A DNA stretch of 64,000 nt from Bacteroidota bacterium (GTDB taxonomy: Bacteria; Bacteroidota; Ignavibacteria; Tepidaquicellales; Tepidaquicellaceae): contig JAFDZP010000002.1 of the NCBI GenBank assembly GCA_018266835.1, positions 510,419 to 574,418 on the forward strand, written 5' to 3'. Position 1 is the stretch's first letter. Every line of letters starts with the position of its first letter. This document shows positions 28,492 to 38,359 of this stretch, one piece after another. The translations under genes were made by a program, and so were the position numbers. Under the pieces are notes generated by a model. That model was given only the letters and a program-made list of their open reading frames with translations, searched no databases and had not been told where the DNA came from.

Positions 28492-29637
28492 ATGAAAAAT
28501 TTTGCAAAATTTTCTATAATTGCAATTTTTATTGCAATCGGGTTTACATTATACTCATGCAATAAGAATGGCGGAGGAAATGAAATCCTCATCGGACAAT
28601 TTGCCTCTTTAACAGGCAGCGAAGCTACTTTTGGTATTTCATCTGATAACGGACTAAAGCTGGCTGTTGAAGAAATAAATAAATCCGGCGGACTTTTAGG
28701 AAAACAAGTAAAATTAGTAACTGAAGATAATCAGGGAAAACCTCAGGAAACTCAAACCGTTGTTCAAAAATTAATCAACAGAGATAAAGTTGTTGCAATC
28801 ATCGGTGAAGTTGCTTCCTCAAGAAGTAAAGCCGGCGCACCAATCTGCCAGCAGAATAAAATCCCTATGATTTCACCTGCATCTACAAATCCCGAAGTAA
28901 CTGCAATCGGTGATTATATTTTCAGAGTATGCTTCATCGATCCTTTCCAGGCAACTGTAATGAGCAAGTTTGCTTTGAACTCAATGAAAGTAAAAAAGAT
29001 TGCAATGTTAGTTGACCAGAAGAATGCTTACTCAACAGGACTTGCAGAGAACTTCAGAAAAATTTTCACAAGCATGGGCGGTGAAATTCTTGAAGAGCAA
29101 AAATATTCAGCAGGAGATAAAGATTTTAAAGCACAGTTAACAAGCATTAAAGCAAAAAGCCCTGAAGCTATTTTCATTCCGGGATATTACACTGACGTAA
29201 ATTTAATTTCAATTCAGGCAAGAGAAATTGGTTTAACATGTCCTCTCTTCGGAAGCGATGGATGGGAATCAGAAAAATTAACTGAAGGTAAAGCAAAAGA
29301 TGCTCTTGAAGGATGCTTCTTCTCAACACACGTTTCAACAGAAGATCCTAATCCAAAAATTCAGGACTTCATAAAAAAATACAGAGCAAAATATAATTCT
29401 GAACCCGATGCAATGAGCTTCTTAGCTTACGATGCAGGCATGATGTTATTTGATGCAATCAAAAAAGCTAACTCAACAGAAGGCGAAAAAGTTAAGAACG
29501 AACTTGCAAAAGAAAAAGATTTCCCAGGAGTAACTGGAAACATCACAATGAACGAACAAAGAAATGCAGTAAAACCTGCTGTAGTTCTTGAAATCAAAGA
29601 CGGAAAATTTAAGTATAAAGAAACAATAGCACCGTAA
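28492..29637 (+). CDS. livJ: Branched-chain amino acid ABC transporter substrate-binding lipoprotein (LivJ-like)
   Basis: 381 residues. A lipoprotein signal (AIGFTLYSCNKN, lipid-modified Cys near residue 23) precedes a type I periplasmic binding protein: ILIGQFASLTGSEATFG, AVEEINKSGGLLGK, QTVVQKLINRDKVVAIIGE, PMISPASTNPEVT and the AYDAGMMLFDAIKKA C-terminal block. It binds leucine-type amino acids or related small molecules (amides, urea) and delivers them to a LivHM permease. A four-helix-bundle gene separates it from livH. The absence of LivM, LivG and LivF nearby means the rest of the transporter must be elsewhere. Confidence 0.9.
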   Translation: MKNFAKFSIIAIFIAIGFTLYSCNKNGGGNEILIGQFASLTGSEATFGISSDNGLKLAVEEINKSGGLLGKQVKLVTEDNQGKPQETQTVVQKLINRDKVVAIIGEVASSRSKAGAPICQQNKIPMISPASTNPEVTAIGDYIFRVCFIDPFQATVMSKFALNSMKVKKIAMLVDQKNAYSTGLAENFRKIFTSMGGEILEEQKYSAGDKDFKAQLTSIKAKSPEAIFIPGYYTDVNLISIQAREIGLTCPLFGSDGWESEKLTEGKAKDALEGCFFSTHVSTEDPNPKIQDFIKKYRAKYNSEPDAMSFLAYDAGMMLFDAIKKANSTEGEKVKNELAKEKDFPGVTGNITMNEQRNAVKPAVVLEIKDGKFKYKETIAP

Positions 29638-29652
29638 GCGGTTTAAAAGTTA

Positions 29653-29675
29653 AAAGTTTGTAATGTTCATAAAGT
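29653..29675 (+). repeat. Left arm of the inverted repeat flanking the four-helix-bundle gene
   Basis: 23 bases beginning AAAGTTTGTAA and ending in the first two bases of the GTG start codon. It matches the reverse complement of 30037-30059 at 21 of 23 positions. A transcript could close the two arms into a long stem around the gene. Confidence 0.8.
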
Positions 29676-30018
29676 GAAAGCTGAAAGATTTGAAGATTTA
29701 CTGGTATGGCAAAAAGCAAAGGAACTTGCTATTTCTATTTTCAAAAAATTTGAACTAAGCAAAAACTATTCTTTTCGAGATCAGATTCAAAGGGCGGCAG
29801 TTTCGATTTCAAACAATATTGCTGAAGGATTTGAAAGAAAAGGAAATAAAGAACTAAAACATTTTCTATTTATTGCAAAAGGAAGCTGCGGAGAAGTAAG
29901 AAGTATGCTTTATTTATGTTTGGAGTTGAATTACATTTCTAAAGATGAATTTGATGTTTTAATTAATGAAGCTTTAACAATTTCAAGAATGTTATCTGCT
30001 TTCATAAAAACTTTATAA
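29674..30018 (+). CDS. Four-helix-bundle protein (S23 / 23S-rRNA intervening-sequence protein family)
   Basis: 114 residues beginning at GTG. Family motifs: ERFEDLLVWQKAKELA, the SFRDQIQRAAVSISNNIAEGFERKGNKE core (split here as two blocks) and FIAKGSCGEVRSMLYLCLEL. These proteins form homopentamers of four-helix bundles and are known mainly as the reading frame of intervening sequences inserted in 23S rRNA genes; their role is unknown. Here no rRNA is present. The gene lies between livJ and livH and is bracketed by a 23-base inverted repeat and 45-base tandem repeats, so it looks like an inserted element rather than a transporter subunit. Confidence 0.9.
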   Translation: MKAERFEDLLVWQKAKELAISIFKKFELSKNYSFRDQIQRAAVSISNNIAEGFERKGNKELKHFLFIAKGSCGEVRSMLYLCLELNYISKDEFDVLINEALTISRMLSAFIKTL

Positions 30019-30021
30019 CCT

Positions 30022-30111
30022 TTATTCCAAGTATCGGCTTTATGAACCTTACAAACTTTATAAACCTTATTCTGAGCACCGACTTTATGAACCTTATAAA
30101 CTTTACAAACT
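30022..30111 (+). repeat. Two 45-base tandem repeats downstream of the four-helix-bundle gene
   Basis: Units 30022-30066 and 30067-30111 both begin TTATTC, share a CTTTATGAACCTTA core, then AAACTTTA and AAAC, and differ at the variable bases after TTATTC. A third TTATTC begins at 30112, directly before the livH ATG at 30121. The right arm of the inverted repeat (30037-30059) lies in the first unit. Confidence 0.85.
30037..30059 (+). repeat. Right arm of the inverted repeat flanking the four-helix-bundle gene
   Basis: 23 bases, complementary to 29653-29675 at 21 of 23 positions. The second 45-base unit carries another, less exact copy. Confidence 0.8.
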
Positions 30112-30120
30112 TTATTCTAC

Positions 30121-31017
30121 ATGTCTGAATTTATACAGCAAATAATTAACGGATTATCATTAGGCGCAATATACGCTTTGATAGCGTTAGGTTACACAAT
30201 GGTATACGGAATTCTCAAGTTTATCAATTTCGCCCACGGTGAAATTTTTATGCTTGGCGCATTCAGCGGATTTTATATTGCCCGCATGATGGGCTTGAAC
30301 GAAAGCTCTATTGTAGGCGCTTTGGTTGTTCTTCTTCTTTCGATGTCAGTTTGCGCTTTGATCGGTGTTACAATTGAAAAACTTGCATATAAACCGTTAC
30401 GTTCCGCTTCGAAGTTGACCGTACTTATCACTGCAATCGGAGTTTCGTTGTTCCTGCAATACACAGGACAGTTAGTCTTCGGCGCTGACCCGAAATCTTT
30501 CCCGACAATTTTAAATAATATAAATTTTAAAATCGGGGGAGCAAATATCGGCTCAAACCAAATTGTAGTAATAGTTTCTTCATTATTACTTATGCTTGGA
30601 TTGAGACAGGTCGTGCAGAAAACAAAAATCGGAACTGCAATCAGAGCAGTATCAAACAACCTCACTGCAGCTTCTTTAATGGGAATTAACATCAACAATG
30701 TTATCTCATTTACATTTGTTCTCGGTTCATCACTTGCAGCAGCAGCAGGAATTTTGTACAGTATTAATTATCCAAGCATTGACCCGCTTATGGGTATTCT
30801 TCCCGGACTTAAAGCTTTCATCGCAGCAGTTCTTGGAGGTATTGGAAATTTTCCCGGCGCTGTTTTAGGCGGACTTGTTATCGGACTAATTGAAACTTTC
30901 ACAGTCGGTTATCTTTCACCGACTTACAGAGATGCAATCGCTTTCGCAATTCTTATAATCATTCTTCTTGTAAAGCCGACAGGTTTACTTGGTAAAAAGG
31001 AAGTAGAGAAAGTTTAA
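30121..31017 (+). CDS. livH: Branched-chain amino acid ABC transporter permease (LivH-like)
   Basis: 298 residues, about eight transmembrane helices. Signatures of LivH: INGLSLGAIYALIALGYTMV at the N-terminus, INFAHGEIFMLGAF, VEKLAY-like segment with IEKLAYKPLR, the ATP-binding-protein contact loop IRAVSNNLTAASLMGINI (about 180) and the GGIGNFPGAVLGGLVIGLIE end block. It forms the inner-membrane channel with LivM. No Shine-Dalgarno-like sequence is visible because the ATG directly follows the 45-base repeats. A terminator follows, so no livM/G/F is co-transcribed from here. Confidence 0.9.
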   Translation: MSEFIQQIINGLSLGAIYALIALGYTMVYGILKFINFAHGEIFMLGAFSGFYIARMMGLNESSIVGALVVLLLSMSVCALIGVTIEKLAYKPLRSASKLTVLITAIGVSLFLQYTGQLVFGADPKSFPTILNNINFKIGGANIGSNQIVVIVSSLLLMLGLRQVVQKTKIGTAIRAVSNNLTAASLMGININNVISFTFVLGSSLAAAAGILYSINYPSIDPLMGILPGLKAFIAAVLGGIGNFPGAVLGGLVIGLIETFTVGYLSPTYRDAIAFAILIIILLVKPTGLLGKKEVEKV

Positions 31018-37735: not shown

Positions 37736-37849
37736 TGTCAGATAGGAATTTTTGTCATAATTTGTATCTCTTAAATTTTTTCACCCTATACCTGCTAATA
37801 GGGAGAAGCAATTTGAACTGCTAAAAAATATTTTATATATTGCAGAGTG

Positions 37850-37891
37850 CAATTAGCAATTAACAATTAACAATTAGCAGTTAGCAATTAG
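37850..37891. repeat. Six tandem heptads CAATTAR
   Basis: Six consecutive 7-base units (CAATTAG, CAATTAA, CAATTAA, CAATTAG, CAGTTAG, CAATTAG). Confidence 0.85.
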
Positions 37892-37908
37892 CTGAAGTGA
37901 AATATATA

Positions 37909-37968: not shown

Positions 37969-38359
37969 CAAAACACAAATGATAAAAATCGGAGATTGTT
38001 TTTACAATATCGGAGTTTGGAAAACCCGACAATAATCCGTCAAAATTTGAAATTTAAAATCTGAAATTTGAAATTATGAAAATCCGACTTTTTCCCGACT
38101 TTTTCACAAATAAAAAAATCGAGTATTGTTTTTTCAACCCAGGTGAATTAAAATCCGACAATAACCCGACATTTTTTGAAATCTGATTGTGAGAATATCA
38201 GTGACATCATAAAGATCATATTTATCCGTGTTAAGAAAATCCGACTTTTTTCCGACTTTATTCAAATAGTGAATTGGTGAAATGGTCAAATAGTGATTTT
38301 GGTGTTATTTCGAGCTTTTTCTTGTTTTGTGGCAGAATAAAACCCGACCAAAACCCGAC
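37948..38359 (+). repeat. Array of six 21-base bipartite CCGAC boxes
   Basis: Copies at 37948-37968, 38021-38041, 38079-38099, 38150-38170, 38236-38256 and 38339-38359. All are exactly 21 bases and fit AAAAYCCGAC-N5-YCCGAC; only the second copy departs, with CCGTC in its right half. The half-sites are 11 bases apart, one helical turn, and all face the same way, while the distances between copies vary (58-103 bases). The array lies upstream of the ECF-like sigma gene. Confidence 0.9.
38197..38256. repeat. 60-base direct repeat, copy 2
   Basis: Partner of 37909-37968 with four substitutions. It ends in the fifth CCGAC box. Confidence 0.9.

Follow-up and report, generated by a model that had tools for sequence, protein, structure and literature searches.

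Intervening sequences (IVSs) are insertions found in the 23S ribosomal RNA (rRNA) genes of bacteria such as Leptospira and Coxiella. They are sporadically distributed, measure about 430-480 nt, have complementary ends and carry an open reading frame (ORF) for a protein of the S23 family. In the IVS of Coxiella, tandem GACAGAT heptamers stand directly before the S23 start, the ends are complementary and the element is cut by RNase III (PMC4990558). The suggestion that IVSs are mobile was made long ago, as cited in PMC4990558. An element of similar layout is described here from a 64,000-nt stretch of DNA (the window) of a Bacteroidota bacterium of the family Tepidaquicellaceae (assembly GCA_018266835.1, contig JAFDZP010000002.1, positions 510,419 to 574,418). 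Unlike the rRNA insertions, it lies between livJ and livH, two protein genes of one operon, and its ends are arrays of nonamers. It is probably one copy of a mobile, IVS-type "S23 element", some 430-600 bp long, in which S23 is the sole gene between mirror-image arrays of 7-9-nt units.

Heptanucleotide repeats are a second described phenomenon. They are known from cyanobacteria (the short tandemly repeated repetitive, or STRR, sequences of Calothrix and Nostoc), from Xanthomonas (GGGAATC) and from Beggiatoaceae (TAACTGA) (PMC4692102, PMC4679880, PMC4853749), and no maker of them has been described (PMC4692102). They resemble the arms of S23 elements in unit length, in their intergenic position near the upstream gene and in often forming inverted pairs (PMC4692102, PMC4679880). 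They differ in that here the repeats are the arms of an S23 element, and the window copy has units of 9 nt. The present result is that S23 IVSs and heptanucleotide repeats, both known, are joined into one element family. A search confined to open-access literature found no earlier link between heptanucleotide repeats and S23 genes.

The livJ-livH gap of the window genome is a 483-nt insert. Its parts, together with the two genes that border it, are the following.

28492 to 29637, forward strand: gene for a livJ-like branched-chain amino-acid binding protein; by comparison of junctions, its stop codon is the left edge of the insertion.

29638 to 29675, forward strand: left arm, a degenerate nonamer array reading TTTAAAAGT TAAAAGTTT GTAATGTTC ATAAAGT, the reverse complement of the right array.

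29674 to 30018, forward strand: S23 (23S_rRNA_IVP) four-helix-bundle gene of 114 amino acids with a GTG start, identified with PF05635, TIGR02436 and AlphaFold2.

30011 to 30118, forward strand: right arm, about 12 degenerate nonamers of the form CTTTATRAA, which contains two 45-base tandem units (5 x 9).

30121 to 31017, forward strand: gene for a livH-like permease; its start codon is the right edge of the insertion.

S23 is the only gene of the element. The inner edge of the left arm holds its GTG start, and its last codons already contain the beginning of the right array. The best-pairing stretch of the left arm, 29653-29675, finds two partners on the right: 21 of 22 bases pair between 29653-29674 and 30038-30059, and 21 of 23 between 29653-29675 and 30082-30104. 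Aligned arm to arm, the element scores 39, a value reached by none of 1,006 equally spaced pairs of control windows in the 64 kb (maximum 28) and by none of 2,000 dinucleotide shuffles (maximum 31). The first-pass annotation, made from the letters of the window, had reported an S23 four-helix-bundle frame within an inverted repeat, followed by two 45-base tandem units, and both descriptions hold. The protein matches the PF05635 profile with 122.4 bits (cut-off 33.8) and the TIGR02436 profile with 113 bits (cut-off 24). The tandem units, at 30005-30049 and 30050-30094, are 82% alike and have a weak third copy; each resolves into five degenerate CTTTATRAA nonamers, the same unit that the left arm carries as its reverse complement. 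The element therefore has terminal complementary sequences enclosing an S23 ORF, as IVSs do. An Rfam scan of 28-32 kb gave no match, in keeping with a position outside any rRNA gene, and a PADLOC scan for defence systems found no match to the element.

Mirror-image arrays are general for S23 genes. The comparison covers 193 S23 loci, of which 89 come from the family of the window genome, 29 from its phylum and 75 from a GTDB-wide scan. At each locus the arm score comes from an alignment of the 200 nt that precede S23 with the 200 nt that follow it, the latter as reverse complement. Three controls were used: windows elsewhere in those loci, arms taken from different loci, and arms in direct orientation. 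Within the family the median arm score is 41, against 17 elsewhere, 18 across loci and 19 in direct orientation, and 82% of loci lie above the 99th percentile of the elsewhere windows. The median is 27 against 16 in the phylum set, with 62% of loci above that percentile. It is 31 against 16 (61% above) in the GTDB-wide set, which is biased to consensus-like S23 proteins because it was scanned with a narrower alignment (A2), the first being too diverse. This last set spans Bacteroidota, Chloroflexota, Acidobacteria, Clostridia, the candidate phyla radiation, Nitrospira and one archaeon of the Methanophagales.

The arms are also periodic. The flanks match themselves best at a lag of 7; harmonics follow at 14 and 21, and a smaller peak stands at 8. 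Strong arrays occur in 32-34% of S23 flanks against 3% of control windows. Among the 126 loci with a clear period, the unit is 7 nt long in 107, 8 in 15, 9 in three and 10 in one. Tandem 7-nt units in intergenic gaps, the form of STRR sequences, are thus found in S23 arms generally, and the window copy differs from the majority. Nearest S23 relatives have a unit length in common more often than in shuffles (107 vs 92.5 +/- 4.4). The unit itself is private to each locus, yet common to the two arms of that locus. Outside the family of the window genome, a motif pooled by expectation maximisation has the theme AG-xxxxx, with AG every seven bases and the G at 95%; the pooled consensus of the AT-rich family itself is AAATT-like, and a strong single position appears only in the rest set.

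At 177 of 186 loci the gene upstream of S23 is co-oriented with it, and about 90 nt separate the upstream stop from the S23 domain. The excess for S23 is moderate, since the gene upstream of other genes in the GTDB-wide loci shares their orientation in 65 of 80 cases. It is likely that S23 elements sit between the stop of one gene and the start of the next and are usually read with them.

Pairs of filled and empty sites point to mobility. A recent insertion is found on plasmid C of Trichormus variabilis, where the site is filled; it is empty in plasmids of Tolypothrix, Nostoc linckia and Aulosira that are about 98% identical. The empty form reads AAAAAGTAATTAACAAATA and the filled form AAAAAGTAAT-AAATCAGAATTCAG...S23...GAGTTCTTCTTT-GTAATTAACAAATA, the insert adding about 430 bp. 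GTAAT is present once when the site is empty and on both sides when it is filled, which makes a 5-bp target duplication probable. The same site holds an arm-only copy in Brasilonema and a copy with an internal deletion in Nostoc C052. A second pair suggests a duplication of TTCTA, more weakly than for GTAAT. Further pairs of empty and filled sites are nrdB-nrdA, cmr2-cmr3, integrase-hyp, TraM-hyp, preT-preA and a site in genome G093; at integrase-hyp the insert sits exactly between stop and start codons. Terminal inverted repeats and sites that occur both empty and filled, two of the marks of a transposable element, are both found. Unlike the 23S rRNA IVSs, these elements in an mRNA context probably insert at the DNA level, with several copies and arm-only relatives per genome. 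S23-bearing IVSs of 23S rRNA appear to be the same kind of element, landed in rRNA.

The S23 sites on cyanobacterial plasmids include cas6-cas4, cmr2-cmr3, nrdB-nrdA (antisense), tra genes and others, and the arm units there include GGGAGTA and GGGAACA (Nostoc plasmids). At three loci (L365, L369, L371) S23 lies inside CRISPR operons, the order cas6-S23-cas4 being found on two plasmids. Picosynechococcus PCC 7003 has cmr2-S23-cmr3, and the site is empty in PCC 7002. Among related Nostoc plasmids (L373/L385 vs L375), neighbouring junctions of one operon are occupied by different S23 elements, and each junction is empty in the other plasmid.

The junction of the window element can itself be compared in those family genomes where both liv genes were read. 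The first-pass annotation had proposed an IVS-type insertion between genes that are normally adjacent, and had suggested looking for an intact livJ-livH junction in relatives. Such junctions exist: the two genes overlap by 4 nt in six relatives, and a seventh leaves 3 nt between them, which, together with the Coxiella-like layout of the insert, bears the proposal out. Other relatives have different occupants. In a congener (G001) the junction holds an S23 protein just 22% identical to that of the window, between octamer arms TAGTGAAA. Genome G008 has octamer arms as well, and its S23 protein is 51% identical to that of G001; the two are 22-28% identical to the window protein. A broken S23 with nonamers and a C-terminus resembling that of the window is found in G009. 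Inverted heptad arrays of 137-139 nt without S23 fill the junction in G015, G017 and G018, and G024 has heptads only. The unlike S23 proteins, the different unit lengths and the arrays without S23 indicate that different elements have landed in livJ-livH on more than one occasion.

These junctions also bear on the idea that S23 is a domesticated gene of the liv operon, with a fixed regulatory role in the branched-chain amino-acid uptake of this lineage. An S23 gene or remnant does stand at the junction in four genomes, as that idea would have it. Between congeners, however, the junction proteins are only 22-28% identical and the arm units differ in length; many relatives have no S23 there, and the same kind of element is found in cas, nrd, tra and other operons. 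With different S23 subfamilies and empty junctions in place of a single orthologue conserved across the family, domestication is rejected as highly improbable. In the liv operon the element is probably a passenger of nearly neutral effect, read through along with both liv genes.

Recurrent use of a junction is seen elsewhere too. The preT-preA junction holds S23 in the window genome, is 8 nt long in G013 and has solo heptads in G001 and G019. A third recurrent junction belongs to genus g69, where two species have S23 and six have either arrays or gaps that are nearly empty. In the window genome (C2, L001:1859-1900) the right arm at preT-preA enters the preA start and apparently adds an N-terminal extension, MEKQKPATGNGRLATN. 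In G024 and G025 (L344/L345) the preT-preA gap is flanked by a different inverted repeat, AACCTGACAGGTTT, perhaps another small element.

What keeps the two arms alike can be asked of orthologous sites. There, an element's own arms match each other better than exchanged arms do in 25 of 25 pairs at 50-60% protein identity and in 34 of 36 at 60-70%, so the arms change together. The first-pass annotation had proposed, with the RNase III-cut stems of 23S rRNA IVSs in mind, that the element may fold around its own gene in a liv transcript through pairing of its ends and may set how livJ and livH are separated or processed; it had named covariation and a computed fold as checks. Covariation is present, and arm-to-arm copying at the DNA level predicts it equally well. 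The arms pair in the predicted structure, but the whole element folds no better than its shuffles (z = -0.82). Selection for an RNA stem should favour mismatches that are compatible with G-U pairing on the transcribed strand. Across the 129 loci with paired arms no such preference is seen, with 181 compatible and 187 incompatible transition mismatches (p=0.79). An RNA-level intervening sequence would agree with the RNase III cutting of the Coxiella IVS, which has the same layout (PMC4990558), and with the co-orientation of most elements with the upstream gene. It would not account for the element lying antisense to its operon on two cyanobacterial plasmids, or for the solo arrays in a single orientation, which are common. 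The wobble test and the fold lead us to reject selection for an RNA stem, and the proposed effect on livJ and livH is unsupported; as an explanation of the locus, the RNA-level reading is unlikely. The arms more probably stay matched through DNA-level copying, in which one of them serves as template for the other while the element inserts or afterwards.

Arrays without a gene are part of the same picture. The nonamer pattern of the window occurs at about 14 separate places in its own genome, one of them with S23, against 0 and 1 hits for its reversed form. Three of the dispersed nonamer arrays are inverted pairs, ordered as in the window, and none of the 13 dispersed nonamer loci that were fetched has an S23 gene. 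Such arm-only copies are relatives of the gene-bearing element, resembling miniature inverted-repeat transposable elements (MITEs). For heptads, density was estimated from genome samples and a pattern search; the reversed heptad pattern also matches heptad arrays of other units and was counted as signal, not background. When 198 genomes from the phylum are grouped by S23 copy number, 20, 29, 56 and 89% of those with 0, 1-2, 3-6 and 7 or more copies match a heptad-array pattern (Spearman 0.53). The S23 arms are themselves among the arrays counted, and phylogeny and base composition confound this correlation.

Heptanucleotide repeats could instead be made by the host, through polymerase slippage in weakly constrained intercistronic gaps, with S23 a passenger that lands or is kept beside them. 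Arrays free of S23 do exist, some in S23-free genomes. Yet slippage does not produce mirror arrays that lie on either side of a 350-nt gene and share a locus-specific unit (41 for own arms against 18 across loci in the family), arms and gene arrive together in the filled and empty pairs, and array frequency climbs with S23 copy number. Slippage as the general source is quite unlikely.

Several observations weigh against a mobile S23 element, the confounding of the copy-number correlation among them. The element encodes no transposase, integrase or reverse transcriptase. Its mobility is the best reading of pairs of sequences, rather than something seen directly. Target duplication is clean at one site and weaker at the second, and the remaining pairs are too diverged. 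At least a quarter of S23 loci have no clear inverted arms, through decay or as another class. Arrays are present in 8 of 41 S23-free genomes, and some of these must stem from slippage or from the loss of S23. The order of units is kept between arms beyond unit shuffles in 14 of 73 loci at p<=0.05, a modest share that would be in line with arm-to-arm copying; the register test picks the best register and is biased, and the unit-shuffle version used here is the fair one.

The S23 protein belongs to a family, PF05635, for which we know of no function. Of 198 genomes sampled from the phylum of the window genome, 157 contain it, often with 5-16 copies each. A domain search of the element's ORF found PF05635 alone, with no transposase or recombinase domain, and no transposase-like fold was among the structure-search matches of the model. 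That AlphaFold2 model has a predicted local distance difference test score (pLDDT) of 94 and template-modelling (TM) scores of 0.8-0.9 to the solved S23 structures 2GSC and 2RLD, which have five chains each. A structure exists for XCC0516 of Xanthomonas. The Xanthomonas S23 protein is a pentameric toroid (PMC4990558). In an alignment of 183 proteins, the polar residues Q37, R40, S44, N48, E51 and E74 are 95-99% conserved, and five of the six are 3-4 residues apart along helix 32-53, a spacing by which they should share one face. A conserved face on a ring would fit a nucleic-acid-binding or active ring, with one short unit per subunit. Carriage as phage cargo was considered too and is rejected, one query having found no S23 match in 50,697 phage records.

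The nearest parallel for a division of labour between gene and arms is found in the repetitive extragenic palindromic (REP) sequences and REPINs with their REP-associated tyrosine transposases (RAYTs), and in MITEs with a parent insertion sequence. Here, too, there is one gene-bearing type and many arm-only inverted intergenic copies with the same terminal unit. As differences, the four-helix bundle S23 has neither an HUH nor a DDE domain, the arms are tandem arrays and the unit varies by locus; the window element has no HUH (Y1) transposase with REP hairpins.

Avd, a protein of diversity-generating retroelements (DGRs), offers another comparison. The window model has a TM score of 0.76 to Avd (4DWL), more distant than 2GSC and 2RLD, and the sequences are detectably similar (PHROG 3206, E=1.8e-15 for an S23 paralogue and 1.4e-4 for the window protein). 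Unlike a DGR, the S23 element has no template or variable repeat and no reverse transcriptase inside. No reverse transcriptase stands next to the window element, whose neighbours are livJ and livH, or is named among the annotated neighbours at 14 plasmid loci; distant reverse transcriptases were not searched for. An inverted-array context is not known to be part of described Avd systems.

A mechanism may be sketched from these parts. The pentameric S23 ring would bind short units, one per subunit, and act on both arms, mobilising the element and its arm-only relatives much as a RAYT does for REPs. S23 might itself cut and join the DNA, or it might rely on a borrowed enzyme in the way that Avd is paired with a reverse transcriptase. 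Copying of one arm from the other would keep them matched with no RNA-stem selection. A broader proposal, offered tentatively, is that S23 proteins may be the founders of a new class of mobility proteins: pentameric rings that recognise tandem 7-9-nt units and drive the insertion of inverted arrays into intercistronic gaps and rRNA, with re-templating of arms. They could then be the source of much of the heptanucleotide load, and the Avd of DGRs a captured S23.

Linking S23 to heptad repeats gives the family a testable role, as a mobility factor for inverted short-repeat arrays. It joins the IVSs of 23S rRNA to a genome-wide element family and suggests an origin for Avd in DGRs. Many annotations of a "four helix bundle protein" in cas, nrd, tra and liv operons would then be insertions, not operon functions. 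S23 elements may also be the origin of many seven-base repeat arrays of bacterial genomes that have so far lacked an explanation.

Further repeats were noted in the same genome. A perfect 14-nt tandem repeat, CTAATTTGCCGTTG, lies at L240:7191-7264 and is not obviously related to S23 arms. In the window, 37846-37893 and 38043-38075 are heptad arrays of the CAATTAG and TTTGAAA types, both in one intergenic gap without S23.
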